From positions 1 to 64,000 of the forward strand of contig CALMUP010000013.1 of NCBI GenBank assembly GCA_937872895.1: a stretch of DNA of 64,000 bases, in the 5' to 3' direction. Source of the DNA: an uncultured Verrucomicrobiota bacterium. Lineage in GTDB: Bacteria > Verrucomicrobiota > Kiritimatiellia > CAIVKH01. The notes under the pieces are model-generated. The model did no database searches. It had not been told where the DNA came from and saw only the letters and a program-made list of their open reading frames with translations. How positions within the stretch are numbered: the first letter of the stretch is position 1; each line of letters begins with the position of its first letter. This document shows, piece by piece, positions 13,629-38,623 of this stretch. A program made the position numbers and the translations under genes.

Positions 13629-13790
13629 GGGGTCAGACATACACTATTAACTATAGATGTTGTTTGAGGGCGTTGGGCAAATCGTTACGTCATGCCGAGG
13701 AAATCGAGGATCCAGTTTAATCGGGCGTTGTATCAAGTAACGAGTTGGGGGAATGCTCGGCAGGTGATATTTCATGGGGTCGATGGCCGG
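13629..13790 (+). pseudogene. Decayed left end of a RAYT transposon
   Basis: The stretch 13629-13655 matches the left terminal repeat of the intact element at 37299 (GGGGTCAGACAT then ACTATTAACTAT, 25 of 27 bases). From 13692 the product MPRKSRIQFNRALYQVTSWG then NARQVIFHG aligns with the first 30 residues of the intact transposase (MPRKPRIQFDGALYHVTSRG). Homology stops at about 13790 in the codons for HGVDGRE. This is a dead copy of the same transposon family, truncated to its left 160 bases. Confidence 0.8.
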
Positions 13791-14219
13791 GAATCCTGCC
13801 GGGGTCGAACCAAGTCGGGCGTTTCTGCTCGGCATCACGCCGGAGCGCGATGCCTACCGGGAGCGATTGCGAATCCATCTGAAGGAGTCGCCGGTGTCGC
13901 TGTTGAACTTCACGATCACCTCGAAGAGAAGCGCCTCCGTATCACGCGCGAATGCGTGGTGCCCGCGCGTGGCTGGTACGCGAAGACCGGAGCAACTGGC
14001 TAGACGGGCATGAACCGACCCATAAAGTGGCTCTAACGAGCCCGATCAGCACCTTCTCCGGATCAAACGCTGGGTAATCAACACGAGACCTGATCCGACC
14101 CCGAATCCTAAAGTGTCGAGATCAAACAAAATTCGGCAATCCTTGGAAACGACAGCCTCAAAAGCAAGGAGTGATACAAGCCAAGGAATCTTGCTGTCAC
14201 ATGCTATTGGGCTCGTGAA
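13791..14219. other. Unassigned degenerate sequence
   Basis: Two overlapping plus-strand frames cross this stretch without a family signature. Pieces such as ITPERDAYRERLRIHLKE and, in another frame, VREDRSNWLDGHEPTHKVA look like real protein fragments broken by frameshifts, possibly of a second transposase. I could not identify them. No intact gene is proposed. Confidence 0.4.
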
Positions 14220-15251
14220 TCAAAACGCTGCGACGATACCTCCAGGGATGTACGACGGAAAGCTTCCAAGTCCCGGCATATTGCGCCAGAGCGAGCCTCG
14301 GCGAGCGCTTCTATCTGCAAACTCCGCAAATTGACTCGAGGGCATTACCGCGTGAATCATGACCTGTCGGTTGATTCGGCATTCCACCTCGTCAGCCGTT
14401 GGTACGAGAGGGCTGCGTTCACCCCAGGGGAAAAGAACAAGTTGGTTGGGGTGTGCGAATAAATTGTCTTGCAAGGTCCTTGCCACAGCTTGGCAGCGCA
14501 TCAGAGCAAGCTGTTGGTTGTGATCATGGCCTCCCTGGGTGTCGGTGTGTCCATCGATAAAAAAGAGCCATCCCCGGTTATCATAAACAAAATTGCGGAT
14601 GTCCCGAAACACAGGATCCTCGATGGAGACTTCGCTGCTGTTTCGGTTGAAGGTAATCGGGCCAAAAGATCGGACAATGCTTTTTCCCTGAAATGAGGAA
14701 AGAGGAAGTGCGGATTTGGCCGCGTCGGGATAAACGATGGATTCTGCGTAATTGGTACCGCGTCCCGTCCGTATAATCAGGAAGTGGTCTCTCTTGGCCA
14801 ATCGCGTTGAACGATAAAAGCTTCCGTTTCGGCCCATTGCACCCCCCTGTATGGGGTTTTCCGGTTTAAACAAAAAAGGAGCGATGTCCGCATCGTTGGA
14901 AAACCCTGCATAAGCGGCTCCATCAGTGGAAACATGGATCTCCGATTTGTTGCGAAGCACATAGATGGCCACTGAGATTACAACCAGCGTCGCGATGCCA
15001 ATCCGAATTACAGGGCGAGGAGTAAAGTTACTCTTCGTGTTTCGTGCCCCGACGACAGTGACCGCGAAAAAGGAAACCAAGGCAGCGATGAAAGAGTTGC
15101 CAACGAACAAATCCGCAAGTTTCGATGAAATCGCTTCTCGCAGGGTTTGGAGGAAGCCGGAAGGGAAAGGGTTTTTTTGAACAGGGGTGGAGCGCCGCGA
15201 TGTTGCGGTTGCTGCGGCCTTACCTTTTCGGGGCCTCCTGTTCCTTTTCAC
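14220..15251 (-). CDS. Membrane-anchored protein with OmpA-like peptidoglycan-binding domain
   Basis: This encodes a protein of 343 residues starting at GTG with AAGGAG 9 bases upstream. A basic N-terminus is followed by two predicted membrane segments (about residues 50-68, FIAALVSFFAVTVVGA, and 83-100, IGIATLVVISVAIYVL). The C-terminal half contains an OmpA/MotB-type domain: FFIDGHTDTQGGHDHNQQLA, then RCQAVARTL, PWGERSP and CRINRQVMI, which correspond to the conserved peptidoglycan-binding residues. It probably links the inner membrane to the cell wall. The last 40 residues extend beyond the domain. The stop lies near transposon debris. Confidence 0.7.
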   Translation of the reverse strand: MKRNRRPRKGKAAATATSRRSTPVQKNPFPSGFLQTLREAISSKLADLFVGNSFIAALVSFFAVTVVGARNTKSNFTPRPVIRIGIATLVVISVAIYVLRNKSEIHVSTDGAAYAGFSNDADIAPFLFKPENPIQGGAMGRNGSFYRSTRLAKRDHFLIIRTGRGTNYAESIVYPDAAKSALPLSSFQGKSIVRSFGPITFNRNSSEVSIEDPVFRDIRNFVYDNRGWLFFIDGHTDTQGGHDHNQQLALMRCQAVARTLQDNLFAHPNQLVLFPWGERSPLVPTADEVECRINRQVMIHAVMPSSQFAEFADRSARRGSLWRNMPGLGSFPSYIPGGIVAAF

Positions 15252-15353
15252 TGTTCGTTACTCCTTTTCTTCCCAAACATTTTCGGTGGCTACTAAACCC
15301 CGCAGCTCGTCGAAACGAGTTCATGCGCATGTGAACCTTGATCATGACCGCAT

Positions 15354-15803
15354 TCATTTCGCGACTAGTTGCTGTTGCAAACCGGCATACCATTCAGCGT
15401 TACGGTCAGCTCGTTCCAAAAACAGACAGGAACCGAGATGCCCCAGGCGCGCTGAATTCACCTCGTGAAGATTTGCGGCCATCCGAAGAGAAGGGCTTAT
15501 CTGAACCCTCCCTCGTTCGTCGGCAGTTACGCATTCCCGCCGATTAAGGTAAAAGGCAGTGAGTTCGGATATCCGTACGTTCTGACGCTCTGCGGCCTGC
15601 TCCCTTGCGTAATCGATAATTGCACTTATGGGGCCGAAAAAAATCAAGATGCGAAGACGCTCGTCAAGCGTCAGCCACGTGTTGATGGGAAATTCAACGG
15701 GCAAAGCACCGATAAACGGTTTCGCCCTGGCGGGAATTTGGACCCTATTTTGCGCATCAAACGCCACAATGTTGGGATCTTTTGTGTTATGGGCGGCATT
15801 CAT
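15354..15803 (-). CDS. MraZ/AbrB-like protein with two DxxGRVxIP-type half domains
   Basis: This encodes a protein of 149 residues from the ATG at 15803. Two related segments, AFDAQNRVQIPARAKPFIG near residue 15 and VTADERGRVQISPSLRMAAN near residue 95, match the repeated SpoVT-AbrB swapped-hairpin pattern of MraZ-type DNA-binding proteins. MraZ usually opens the mraZ-mraW-ftsI cell-division cluster; no such genes are nearby, so this is an orphan paralogue. A perfect TATAAT on the minus strand (15842-15847) lies upstream in an AT-rich region, but no clear -35 is seen. A DNA-binding role is inferred. Confidence 0.55.
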   Translation of the reverse strand: MNAAHNTKDPNIVAFDAQNRVQIPARAKPFIGALPVEFPINTWLTLDERLRILIFFGPISAIIDYAREQAAERQNVRISELTAFYLNRRECVTADERGRVQISPSLRMAANLHEVNSARLGHLGSCLFLERADRNAEWYAGLQQQLVAK

Positions 15804-16388
15804 GGCTGACAAATTGGTTAAGTTGTCCCTTTGTACTGCCTATTATATAAAGAGATGCCCCAAAAATATGGCGATTTCAAGAAAATACTTTTTATACAGT
15901 ACTTAATTTGCGGTTCATGAATCCAAAAAAGCCAATTTTTCGCGGAAATAATCACAATACATCAATAAGTTGTATAATTTATTACAAGCCGCCTATATGT
16001 GGTGGTGTCGGTCGGTCGCGTTCACATCCTGGCGGCGGCGGATACCGAGGATGGATTCCGCGCGGGCACGATTCCCGGAGGGGAGCCCGCTTCGGACCAA
16101 CACGCGCACCGCGTCGTTAAACTCCGCCCCCTCCATCCGTGTCCATTCGTGTTCATCCGTGGTTCCACCTCCCCGTTTTCTCCATACTCGTACACCCACT
16201 CGTACACGCCCCCCATTCCGCCAAAGGCTGATCCGCCTCCGGCGGGCACCCCTCTCCATTCCTGTCCCTCGTCCGGGAACCATAGGTGACAGAGCGTTTG
16301 TTGCAAGTTGTTGTATAGCAACGCACCGGCGCTGGAGTGATCAACATTTCGAGGGTTGATGCACGACGATATTGGTTGATTGGCGCTG
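15804..16388. repeat. AT-rich intergenic region followed by repeat mosaic
   Basis: The stretch 15813-15990 is the most AT-rich part of the window and probably holds promoters: TATAAT at 15973-15978 on the plus strand and 15842-15847 on the minus strand. It then changes abruptly to the GC-rich repeat families seen at 484-3171: a GAGGGGAGCCCGCTTCGGAC block (about 16077-16097), the CCGTGTCCATTCGTGTTCAT motif (16134-16167) and CTCGTACACCCACTCGTACA (about 16188-16209). No gene is supported. Confidence 0.6.
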
Positions 16389-16406
16389 TTTCACCGTTTG
16401 GTGAAA
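16389..16406. promoter_or_regulatory. Operator-like inverted repeat 1 upstream of abiEi
   Basis: A perfect palindrome TTTCACC-GTTT-GGTGAAA is extended outward by GCGCT/AGCGC arms (16383-16387 and 16407-16411), allowing one bulged base. It lies 62 bases upstream of the abiEi start. A second, similar site overlaps the start codon. AbiEi antitoxins are known to repress their own operon by binding inverted repeats at the promoter. Confidence 0.6.
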
Positions 16407-16455
16407 AGCGCAGATGCAATGAAGGCCGCTTGATTGGTATCATTGATTATGGTAA

Positions 16456-16473
16456 TTTCACCAACAGATGAAA
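16456..16473. promoter_or_regulatory. Operator-like inverted repeat 2 overlapping the abiEi start codon
   Basis: TTTCACC-AACA-GATGAAA has the same 7-4-7 layout as the upstream site with one mismatched pair. It contains the start codon ATG at 16468. A candidate promoter, TTGATT at about 16430-16435 with a 17-base spacer to TAATTT at about 16453-16458, would place transcription start at or next to the ATG, so a bound protein would block both polymerase and ribosome. Confidence 0.5.
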
Positions 16474-17583
16474 GCAAAAGATAAACTGAAAGAGAGTGGC
16501 TTAGCGTTGCGCTTCGACGAATTGTTGCGTGAGCTGATCGGGCGTATACCGACGTTGAGGCTGGTTTCGCTTGTGCGGGAGGCACGGCTTTCGCCCGGGT
16601 CAGTTGATCGGGCTGGCCAGGTGGCGCAGGTGATGGCGGGCAAACGAATCTGGACGTTGGTGGTGGAAGAGAAACGAAGGGCGCAGCCACGCGAGGTCCG
16701 AATGGCGGTCTTGCAGCTCAAGCATGATCTTGAAAACCTGCCGGGTGACCAATCGCGGTATGCCGTGTTGATGGCACCATTTATCTCGGAGGCGTCGGCG
16801 AGGATTTGCACCGAGGCGGGTATCGGTTATGCCGACTTGTCGGGAAACGCGCGGTTATCATTCGATCAGGTATATATTGAGAAACGCGGATCGGAGAATC
16901 CATTTCGCGAGAAACGCGAAAAGCGATCGCTATTTGCCCCGCGCGCGGCACGCGTGCTGCGCGTCTTGCTAACCCCGCCGTTGCGAGCGTGGAAAGTCCT
17001 CGAGCTTCAAGAAGCCTCCGGGGTGAGTCTTGGTCAGGTAAGCAATGTGCGGAAAGAGTTGTTCGACCGCGAGTGGGCCAAGACGGGCAGCCAGGGAATG
17101 TATGTAAGCAAACCCGAAGACCTGGCGCGGGCCTGGCAGGAATCCTACGAACCGCGTCCGCGTCGCCGCGAATTGGCCTACACGATGTTACACGGAAACG
17201 AATTGGACATAGCGATACGCTCTGCCCTCGCCGAGGCGGGCAAAGGAGAACACGCGGTGTTGTCATCCTACTCCGCCGCACGGTGGTTTGCCCCTTTTGC
17301 GCGACAGGCGACGCAGTTTTTTTATGCGGACAAACCAGGCGCGGAAATGCTGAAACAACATCTGCATCTGCAACCGGTAGCGCGCGGCGAAAACGTGGTG
17401 ATCCTCGAGCCGCGTGAAGACGATGTGTTTTCCGGACGATTGGAGGCGGCACCAGGGATCTGGTGCAGTGGCCTGGTGCAAACCTGGCTGGACCTGGGTG
17501 TGGCCGGTGAACGGGGGCGCGAAGCCGCGGACCATCTGATGCGGGAAAAACTCCTGCCGGCGTGGAAGATGGTGGCGCCGTGA
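16468..17583 (+). CDS. AbiEi-family antitoxin (type IV toxin-antitoxin)
   Basis: This encodes a protein of 371 residues. A region rich in basic residues near 165-215 (VLRVLLTPPLRAWKVLELQE and SLGQVSNVRKELFDREW) has the form of a winged helix, expected for the DNA-binding part of AbiEi. The remainder contains a central ADLSGNARL segment common in this antitoxin group. AbiEi counteracts the AbiEii nucleotidyltransferase without direct contact and represses its own promoter. The two palindromes at 16389 and 16456 fit this role. The downstream gene overlaps by 4 bases (GTGA), giving the normal antitoxin-toxin order. No close relation to the qat cassette is visible beyond sharing the accessory region. 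Confidence 0.7.
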   Translation: MKAKDKLKESGLALRFDELLRELIGRIPTLRLVSLVREARLSPGSVDRAGQVAQVMAGKRIWTLVVEEKRRAQPREVRMAVLQLKHDLENLPGDQSRYAVLMAPFISEASARICTEAGIGYADLSGNARLSFDQVYIEKRGSENPFREKREKRSLFAPRAARVLRVLLTPPLRAWKVLELQEASGVSLGQVSNVRKELFDREWAKTGSQGMYVSKPEDLARAWQESYEPRPRRRELAYTMLHGNELDIAIRSALAEAGKGEHAVLSSYSAARWFAPFARQATQFFYADKPGAEMLKQHLHLQPVARGENVVILEPREDDVFSGRLEAAPGIWCSGLVQTWLDLGVAGERGREAADHLMREKLLPAWKMVAP

Positions 17584-18613: not shown

Positions 18614-18743
18614 TCGGGCGTTGCTGCTGGGGGCGCCCGCAACCAACCGCCCCCGCCCCATCAACCCCAAAAAGAATAAATAGTGAGGACTGACCCCTTT
18701 CGGGGGGGGATTTGGCTTTCCGTGTCGGGCCGGGTGCATCAGG

Positions 18744-37158: not shown

Positions 37159-37298
37159 TCTCCGTCGCGCGTTGGCGCGAGGTGCATGTGCGTATCGGGA
37201 GAAATAAGATTCAGGGTTGGCTCTGCACCCGGGATTGACATTCGTCGGCCGTTCCGAAAAAACCAAGCCACGGAGGTTGTCATGATCAAGGTGTTATC

Positions 37299-38311
37299 GG
37301 GGTCAGACATTCACTATTAACTATTGACTTGGTTTTAGACCTTGGCTATTTCGTTGCGTCATGCCGAGGAAACCGAGAATCCAGTTTGATGGGGCGTTGT
37401 ACCATGTGACGAGTCGGGGGAATGCCCGGCAGGTGATCTTTCATGGAGACGATGACCGGGAGCGGTTTTTGGAGCAGGTGGGGGAGCGGGTGGTTTCGTA
37501 CGGGGTGGTGGTACATGCCTTTGTCCTGATGGACAATCATTATCACCTGCTGGTCCGCACGCCGTCGGGCAACCTGGATCGGTTCATGCAGCGACTGAAC
37601 ACGAGTTACGCCCTGTATTACCGGTACAAACACGGTCGACCGGGTCATGTCTTTCAGGGTCGCTACAAGGGATTGTTGGTGACCGATGACGACTATCTAC
37701 TGGCGTTGACCCGGTATATTCACCTGAATCCGATCAAGACCCGAAAGTGGCGCGACGAGGAGGCGAAGGCCAAACTGGCCGGGTTGAAGGCCTACCGTTG
37801 GAGCAGTTATCCGTCCTATGCCGAAGGCCGACCCCGTTACCCTTGGCTCAACCTGGATGTGCTCCATCATTACGGTGCCTCACCAAAACGAGCGGCGGCC
37901 CGCTACCGGGCTTACACCGAGGCCATGGTCTCGAAGAAGGATGACGATCTCTCTGAGGCACTCAAGGCGGCGGATGCCCAGCTCGGTCCGGCGATCGAAC
38001 CCTCACGCCGTCGGGTCGCCTCCCCGCCCGCCGCGTGGTCGTTCGACCAGGTGGACCACATCGTCGCCAAGCACTTCGACGTGGAGGCCGAGGTCTTCAA
38101 GCTCCATGGTCAATCGGCCGGTGAAGCGAAGCGCGTGGCCATCGCACTGGCCCAACGAAAAACCGGCGCCAATCTAGAAGCAATCGGCAACCATTACGGC
38201 GGCATCAGCGCCGCCGCAGTGAGCATGAATCAGAAGCGCCTTCGCCCGTTGGATGTACGCACCCTGGATGCGCTGATAAAGGCTAATAGTTAATAGTGAA
38301 TGTCTGACCCC
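37299..38311. mobile_element. Intact RAYT-type transposon with 27-bp terminal inverted repeats
   Basis: The element is bounded by perfect 27-bp inverted repeats at 37299-37325 (starting GGGGTCAGACATTCAC) and 38285-38311 (ending GTCTGACCCC). It contains one transposase gene. The gene's stop codon lies inside the right repeat. A decayed copy of the left end lies at 13629. No target duplication is obvious. Confidence 0.85.
37361..38293 (+). CDS. REP-associated tyrosine transposase (RAYT, Y1_Tnp)
   Basis: This encodes a protein of 310 residues. MPRKPRIQFDGALYHVTSRG at the start and FVLMDNHYHLLVRTP (the HUH motif, HYH) are the signature of the Y1 transposase superfamily. The catalytic Tyr probably lies in LTRYIHLNP. 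Conserved YRYKHGRPGHVFQGRYKG is also typical of RAYTs. The C-terminal 100 residues contain a DnaA/HTH-like DNA-binding part. RAYTs process REP palindromes as single-stranded substrates; here the gene sits inside larger inverted repeats. No frameshift is seen, so it may be active. Confidence 0.88.
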   Translation: MPRKPRIQFDGALYHVTSRGNARQVIFHGDDDRERFLEQVGERVVSYGVVVHAFVLMDNHYHLLVRTPSGNLDRFMQRLNTSYALYYRYKHGRPGHVFQGRYKGLLVTDDDYLLALTRYIHLNPIKTRKWRDEEAKAKLAGLKAYRWSSYPSYAEGRPRYPWLNLDVLHHYGASPKRAAARYRAYTEAMVSKKDDDLSEALKAADAQLGPAIEPSRRRVASPPAAWSFDQVDHIVAKHFDVEAEVFKLHGQSAGEAKRVAIALAQRKTGANLEAIGNHYGGISAAAVSMNQKRLRPLDVRTLDALIKANS

Positions 38312-38623
38312 GAGCGGCTCTCTGACCCCGAGCGGCTCACCCCAAGCGGCTCGGGCTAGCTACGCCCCCCTCGGATCGATTTGGGTGTACGAGTAGGTGT
38401 AGGAGTAAGTGGAAACATGATCGTGCTTGTATACCCACTCGTACACGTAGATCCCGCGGCAAACCGGGCCATGCTCCACGCACACGATCCCGTGCTCCCT
38501 CCTGAACACCGAAACCCGACACCCGACACCCTCTTTCCCCTCCCCCGGTTGCGCCATCCGGTCATCTCGTCCATTGACACCCGCCCGGCGTTTCTCTACG
38601 TTTTGCGCCATCTGTAGGTCGTT
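38312..38623. repeat. Intergenic repeat tract downstream of the RAYT element
   Basis: No gene is seen. The tract starts with tandem CGAGCGGCTC units (38311-38355), then carries the GTACGAGTAGGTGTAGGAGT stretch (about 38386-38406) and ACCCACTCGTACACG (about 38433-38447), a family also found at 784-806, 2817-2840 and 16188-16209. A GC-rich stretch leads to the HNH gene. Confidence 0.55.

Follow-up and report, generated by a model that had tools for sequence, protein, structure and literature searches.

We find that a transposase gene in the window, by which we mean the whole stretch of 64,000 nucleotides analysed here, is enclosed by perfect terminal inverted repeats (TIRs), and that this element and many of its relatives have beside them tandem arrays in which the tip of a TIR is repeated together with adjoining flank DNA. 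The TIRs consist of a GGGGTCA tip, a spacer and two heptads. We identify the element as a TIRtron, i.e. a single TnpAREP-like Y1 HUH transposase gene between perfect TIRs, and consider it probable that it transposes by a single-strand HUH route and that side reactions at its tips build the arrays. More tentatively, we suggest that transposases of this type (TIRYTs) make recurrent cuts at N^TGACCCC in their own tips and join these to 3' ends of neighbouring DNA, generating tandem arrays of tip and local flank beside themselves and beside gene-less mini-elements; the arrays might then represent a fossil map of cut sites and a route to REP-like tandem repeats, and the heptads a fast-changing, element-specific address. 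The features of the window are listed in Table 1.

Table 1 Features of the element and of related sequences in the window
Feature	Position	Strand	Remark
Left TIR	37297..37325	+	TCGGGGTCAGACATTCACTATTAACTATT; 29 of 29 bases complementary to right TIR
Right TIR	38285..38313	-	includes the end of the gene (last two sense codons, stop codon)
TIRYT/TnpAREP-type Y1 transposase gene, 310 aa	37361..38293	+	Y1_Tnp, REP_Tyr_transpos and Foldseek matches
HUH motif, codons for N59-H60-x-H62	37535..37546	+	columns invariant in alignment of 58 sequences
Y119 codon (YIHLNP), probable catalytic tyrosine	37715..37717	+	invariant in 58 sequences; role inferred from family
DnaA domain IV-like helix-turn-helix, C-terminal, aa 229-289	38045..38227	+	PF08299 and profile match
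Period-7 direct repeat, inner left TIR	37310..37325	+	8 of 9 positions match at shift 7
Tip TGACCCC, right end	38305..38311	+	commonest restart point of junction duplications
Tip-plus-flank array	38303..38352	+	TCTGACCCCGAGCGGCTC twice, then a third, degenerate copy
Left-end relic, same family as window element	13629..13792	+	TIR and about 35 codons
Solo TIR of a different TIRtron (contig C3 type)	18668..18704	-	matches C3 TIRs

The earlier note on this DNA had described a complete transposase gene inside perfect 27-bp inverted repeats, the right one of which provides the stop codon. The 310-aa reading frame is complete and ends in AAT AGT TAA inside the right TIR, with the stop codon at 38291-38293; the repeats are indeed perfect but, at 29 bp, two longer than had been described. 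The element is 1013 bp in length, its TIRs have the motif GGGGWSAS in the form GGGGTCAG, and it contains no other gene of note besides the Y1 gene. A search of the window with the TIR 27-mer, allowing up to three mismatches, gave three matches, and none in 100 dinucleotide shuffles. A 12-nt inverted repeat (92%) has one arm immediately outside the left TIR (37259-37270) and the other immediately inside it (37325-37336).

The encoded protein matches Pfam Y1_Tnp (E 2.2e-11) and, with 61.2 bits and thus under the cut-off of 80, NCBIfam REP_Tyr_transpos (E 1e-16). In an alignment of 58 sequences N59, H60, H62 and Y119 are all invariant, and by analogy with the family Y119 is the probable catalytic tyrosine. 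In Foldseek searches with an AlphaFold2 model based on this alignment (mean pLDDT 89.4), the top PDB match was TnpAREP in complex with a REP hairpin (4er8, E 6.3e-5), followed by the IS608 and ISDra2 transposases. The C-terminal region (aa 229-289) matches Bac_DnaA_C (PF08299) weakly and below the Pfam cut-off (E 2.5e-4); a match at E <= 0.01 was obtained for 17 of the 58 aligned sequences, and a profile of all 58 compared with known structures matched DnaA (best E 1.2e-9).

In the genome of origin (3.87 Mb, 51 contigs) there are six matches to the TIR with up to three mismatches, i.e. the two ends of the window copy, the two ends of a second full copy on contig C20 (L008), the relic at 13629, and a solo TIR of the left type on contig C38. 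The C20 copy, the one second full copy that a search for further copies revealed, is also 1013 bp long and has the same two ends, with one mismatch in the right TIR, in unrelated flanks. This copy, together with the matching TIRs of most relatives (see below), agrees with the suggestion in the earlier note in so far as the element behaves as a unit; as far as can be judged from the two sequences, the window and C20 copies indicate that the element moves, or moved, as such. The copies differ at 46 positions, which are clustered: positions 49-620 are identical, and all differences lie in 39-48 and 621-997. Under random placement, a given difference-free tract of 572 bp (37347-37918 in the window) has a probability of 6e-18, and the two copies have, therefore, recombined.

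An identical tract beside diverged stretches, reflecting recombination between copies, and the low copy number of two full copies in the genome would also be expected of a domesticated gene that serves the host, has the TIRs only as binding sites, and has spread by recombination rather than by transposition. We find this improbable: the copies share their exact end points but not their flanks, the source genome also contains a relic and solo TIRs, other genomes contain gene-less TIR pairs, and TIRs match within an element and differ between elements.

As for the relics in the window, the proposed left-end relic at 13629 is genuine and continues from the TIR into the gene as far as 13792 (84% identity; 83.5% over 164 bp in a second comparison). 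The proposed right-end relic at 18681-18697 was rejected. This site has the tip GGGGTCAG in common with the window element, as well as TCACTATT at an offset of one base, but it belongs to a different TIR family of the genome, and the TIRs of the TIRtron on contig C3 (L010) fit it much better (20 of 20 bases for one C3 end; 37 bp at 94.6%). L010 and two further TIRtrons of the genome, L011 and L009, each have their own TIRs. Another left tip, 171 bp upstream of the C20 copy (L008:1230-1480), is preceded by the same GGCATC, which also precedes the solo TIR on C38.

For comparison, we assembled two sets of relatives. Set A was drawn from the genome of origin, its family, part of a list from 387 genomes of its phylum (30 automatic loci and 80 chosen places, part of the whole list) and 62 named loci; it gave 203 gene hits in 194 loci, of which 171 genes remained after incomplete frames, short flanks and duplicates had been dropped. 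In 108 elements the tips of both TIRs could be read, and these, with L052 as two entries, provided 216 ends; a re-run of the same steps gave 112 elements and 224 ends, and the duplication counts given below are those of the first run. Set B was taken from the phylum of a Desulfobacterales genome and comprised 90 loci (30 automatic loci and 60 chosen places, again part of the whole list), with readable tips for 65 of 89 genes. The two sets overlap in one locus (L287 = L030), and the gene finder used for set B was derived from set A. Within both sets, related elements are not independent. Entering no count were 29 of the 30 loci of one further listing and 8 of 9 plasmid regions.

Inverted repeats are general in these relatives. 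An inverted-repeat score of at least 13 was reached by 138 of 171 genes in set A compared with 21 of 342 mispaired upstream and downstream pieces, the scores of which are probably due in part to the shared tip, and by 78 of 89 genes in set B compared with 19 of 178 mispaired pieces. The earlier note had named two findings that would speak against a mobile unit. Of these, relatives that all lack the repeats were not what we found in either set; repeats independent of the gene were not found as such, yet gene-less TIRs do occur, as solo TIRs in the source genome and as pairs in other genomes. A stop codon within the right TIR is also common (80 of 112 elements in the re-run of set A, 56 of 65 in set B).

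The TIRs vary between elements but agree within one element (set A), and in both sets the left TIR has the same layout, in which GGGGTCA is followed by a spacer at positions 8-11 (mostly G/A, N, C/T, C) and a 7-nt unit that is present twice (12-18 and 19-25). The sequence of this heptad varies from element to element. At a shift of 7, identity in set A was 0.42 compared with 0.28 in shuffled sequences (z 13.0; the next best shift was 1, with z 3.5), and in set B it was 0.40 compared with 0.28 (z 9.3). Co-variation of the inner TIR with the protein did not single out the C-terminal domain: the partial correlation with inner-TIR similarity was 0.08 for the C-terminal and N-terminal domains alike, each above permutations.

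Beyond these sets, phage and plasmid collections gave 1 and 12 records, respectively, all of them distant matches and none covering 80% of the query, and nine loci were matched in viral contigs. On four plasmids (L387, L389, L390 and L392) a short Y1 'transposase' (~234-250 aa) lies beside annotated toxin-antitoxin genes (Doc-like, PemK/MazF twice, HipA). Three loci of one genome (L245, L246 and L249 in G397) have gene-less TIR pairs of ~59-71 bp with tip-flank arrays alongside. At two loci (L402 in G613, 13646-16642; L409 in G716, 81-1789) several right-type TIRs, all oriented alike, delimit stretches of ~0.7-1.4 kb, which could be one-ended events carrying neighbouring DNA. At L243 (G383:C1:2946232-2946607) about 105 bp of an element end are present three times in a row with spacings of 159 and 112, in surroundings that, judged by eye, look like a YD/Rhs-type repeat gene.

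Direct matches of at least 3 nt between the two junctions, as expected of target-site duplications, were present in 1 of 170 elements compared with ~6 expected from mispaired junctions, and none stands out. Matches of 2 nt were in excess (27 compared with ~16 expected), and 22 of these 27 were the self-complementary AT, TA or GC. TIRs often extend outward beyond GGGG, with at least two extra matching bases in 72 of 170 elements compared with ~19 expected from mispaired ends, and a mostly self-complementary 2-nt excess is what TIRs that continue outward would give. Empty sites, also proposed earlier as a check, were not found: there was none for the window flanks in eight genomes of the family, other genomes matching on the side of the HNH gene only and leaving the left flank unmatched; none in 28 genomes of the genus of a three-copy genome; no clear one among the 16 best scanned elements that lie inside genes; and no exact one in the five genomes of the G613 genus. 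In this last search G613 and G658 have the left but not the right flank of the element in common, and the match in G636 ends 126 bp short of the element.

As single strands, the ends of the window element fold no better than shuffled sequence and form no stable hairpin. GTAG is absent from the TIRs and from the 150 nt to the left. Three GTAG are present in a long imperfect hairpin to the right of the element and outside it (38372-38457; 86 bp, predicted RNA fold -40 kcal/mol); this hairpin represents a repeat family, perhaps REP-like, with copies of 74-90% identity on at least six other contigs or places, several of them near contig ends. A second short repeat (38501-38546; 31-46 bp, 85-90%) has copies on C33, C9, C1 and C8.

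Ends without hairpins and long perfect TIRs, the latter a typical trait of DDE elements, raise the question whether an unrelated (DDE) transposase recognises the TIRs and the Y1 gene is cargo. We hold this to be very improbable because the element has no other gene of note, target-site duplications are missing as described above, with a 2-nt excess that is mostly self-complementary, and the same tips accompany the same gene family in two large sets.

The arrays extend from the TIR into the flank. To the right of the window copy, TCTGACCCC GAGCGGCTC is repeated (38303-38352), with units that start two bases inside ^TGACCCC, and at the C20 copy TGACCCC GATTCCGG is repeated, using that copy's own flank. 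We scored a duplication if it spanned the TIR/flank junction, contained 3 nt or more of TIR and 4 nt or more of flank, and was 11 nt or longer overall. By this definition, 49 of the 216 ends in set A have a junction-spanning tandem duplication compared with 0-3 of 216 mispaired ends, 24 of 4139 positions chosen at random in these loci and 1 of 1875 positions in the element interior; relative to the rest of their loci, junctions are enriched ~40-fold. Duplications reach a rate of 22% at the junction itself, compared with 4-7% at 6 to 15 nt outward; at least one end is duplicated at 39 of 107 loci and both ends at 10. In set B, 16 of 130 ends have duplications compared with 0-1 of 130 mispaired ends and 7 of 2522 positions chosen at random, and 12 of 64 loci have at least one such end. 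Five predictions fixed before the analysis of set B all held, the one on the restart point with few cases (exact in 5 of 10 adjacent duplications). Similarly, plain repeats of at least the first six flank bases within 40 nt were present at 76 of 346 ends compared with 8-23 of ~340 when the start was shifted. Of four elements listed on large contigs, L171 and L172, both from the same single-contig genome, carry arrays at each of their four ends; arrays are, therefore, not confined to fragmented assemblies. L169 and L369 have arrays at none of their four ends in the same test.

The duplications have a preferred start. Among 41 adjacent duplications, 13 restart exactly at ^TGACCCC (8 of 31 in set A and 5 of 10 in set B) and 17 are compatible with this restart, compared with 8 for the next best position; the remaining 24, the window array among them, start at other points of the tip, further into the TIR or within the element. 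Another 24 of the total of 65 duplications are non-adjacent. TGACCC is preceded by C at 238 of 346 ends, and the flank portion of the duplications is 3 to 15 nt. Insertion into ready-made tips as the sole cause of the arrays was rejected on the reasoning that the repeated flank is site-specific.

A different origin of the arrays would be replication slippage or template switching at the G-rich tips; the role of the transposase would then be confined to moving the element, and arrays could form without it. The main point in favour of this scenario is that 19 of 37 joints have microhomology of 1-4 nt, which is above chance (~10 expected at a match chance of 0.28), and the variable unit lengths and restart points fit it as well. 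We nevertheless regard it as rather unlikely: 18 of the 37 joints have no microhomology (~27 expected), restarts prefer ^TGACCCC, and junctions are enriched within the very same loci. Moreover, the ends of nine E. coli IS elements have 0 duplications at 18 ends, although these lack GGGG tips and come from an organism other than the source genomes.

Two species of one genus, G613 and G658, share a site. Both have a gene-less TIR pair followed rightward by the same DNA (83% over 2.4 kb), and their left flanks are unrelated. On the left side, G658 has an additional 44-bp tandem copy composed of flank and half of the mini-element, and G613 has TTTTA-GGGG(TCA) repeats; on the right side, the tip of G613 is separated from the shared DNA by further ACCC(C) pieces, which are absent in G658. 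From this pair of sequences, the right side suggests a changing junction next to an element that remains in place, and the left side may reflect rearrangement.

In the mechanism that we favour, in which the transposase itself builds the arrays, its HUH domain would act on single-stranded TIR DNA and move the whole unit without target duplication. Cleavage of single strands by TnpAREP enzymes is reported to occur at C|T, with the T becoming linked to an added 3'-OH (Corneloup et al. 2021, PMC8266576). The ^TGACCCC restart resembles this cleavage, and we infer a preferred cut on the outward-reading strand at N^TGACCCC (C^T in most TIRs). In the window, the cut would lie at C^T between 38304 and 38305 and, by symmetry, at 37305/37306 on the minus strand of the left end. 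Cleavage would leave a 5'-phosphotyrosine on the T, and if this covalent intermediate were attacked by the 3' end of the adjacent flank, provided by a sister or nascent strand, and not by the partner end, the product would be tandem units of TGACCCC plus flank. A flank-derived attacking end would explain why arrays lie beside the window copy and many other copies. Several results speak against this mechanism: no empty site was found in the genomes searched, 24 of the 41 adjacent duplications start at points other than ^TGACCCC, microhomology at the joints is above chance, the ends of the window element lack hairpins, inner-TIR similarity does not favour the C-terminal domain, and L169 and L369 have no arrays. 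The arrays supply a concrete candidate cleavage site that is open to test, connect single-strand HUH chemistry with a transposon whose TIRs look ordinary, and may bear on the origin of REP-like repeats.

The earlier note had proposed a comparison of the ends with those of Y1 transposons of the IS200/IS605 type. The HUH Y1 fold is common to the window element and IS608 and ISDra2, and no target-site duplication is seen. IS200/IS605 elements have subterminal hairpins and no TIRs, whereas the window element has perfect TIRs and no stable hairpin; likewise, the substrates of TnpAREP and IS608 are hairpins.

With the RAYT/REPIN system the element shares a related transposase, gene-less mini-elements, tandem clusters with flank, and C|T cleavage, putative here (PMC3116915, PMC8266576); specifically, tandem REPIN clusters that include flanking sequence are described in P. 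fluorescens (Bertels and Rainey 2011, PMC3116915). REPs, as presented there, are hairpins with GTAG, whereas the TIRs here are long and without hairpins, and the gene lies inside.

The closest likeness is to TIRtrons. The earlier note took a gene enclosed by inverted repeats to be unusual for its group; Di Nocera, De Gregorio and Rocco (2013, PMC3733652) had already introduced the names TIRtron and TIRYT for such Y1 transposases flanked by long TIRs, and in a later study 20 of 26 TIRYTs were placed in TnpAREP subclass 2.1 (Quentin et al. 2018, PMC6006769). The window protein resembles this subclass in its domain features, i.e. a Y1 domain with Bac_DnaA_C or another HTH at the C-terminus. The text of the 2013 paper reports, in agreement with what we see here, GGGGWSAS in the TIRs and solo, paired and clustered TIRs; it also notes that TIRs may overlap genes (5'ov/3'ov). 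In the open-access literature covered we saw neither junction duplications of TIRtrons nor heptads in the inner TIR described, and no test of TIRtron movement. Compared with the text of the published TIRtron account, figures aside, the ^TGACCCC junction duplications and the period-7 repeat are additional here (PMC3733652). The element itself is an ordinary TIRtron, of a kind already known and little studied, and the arrays are the part worth testing.
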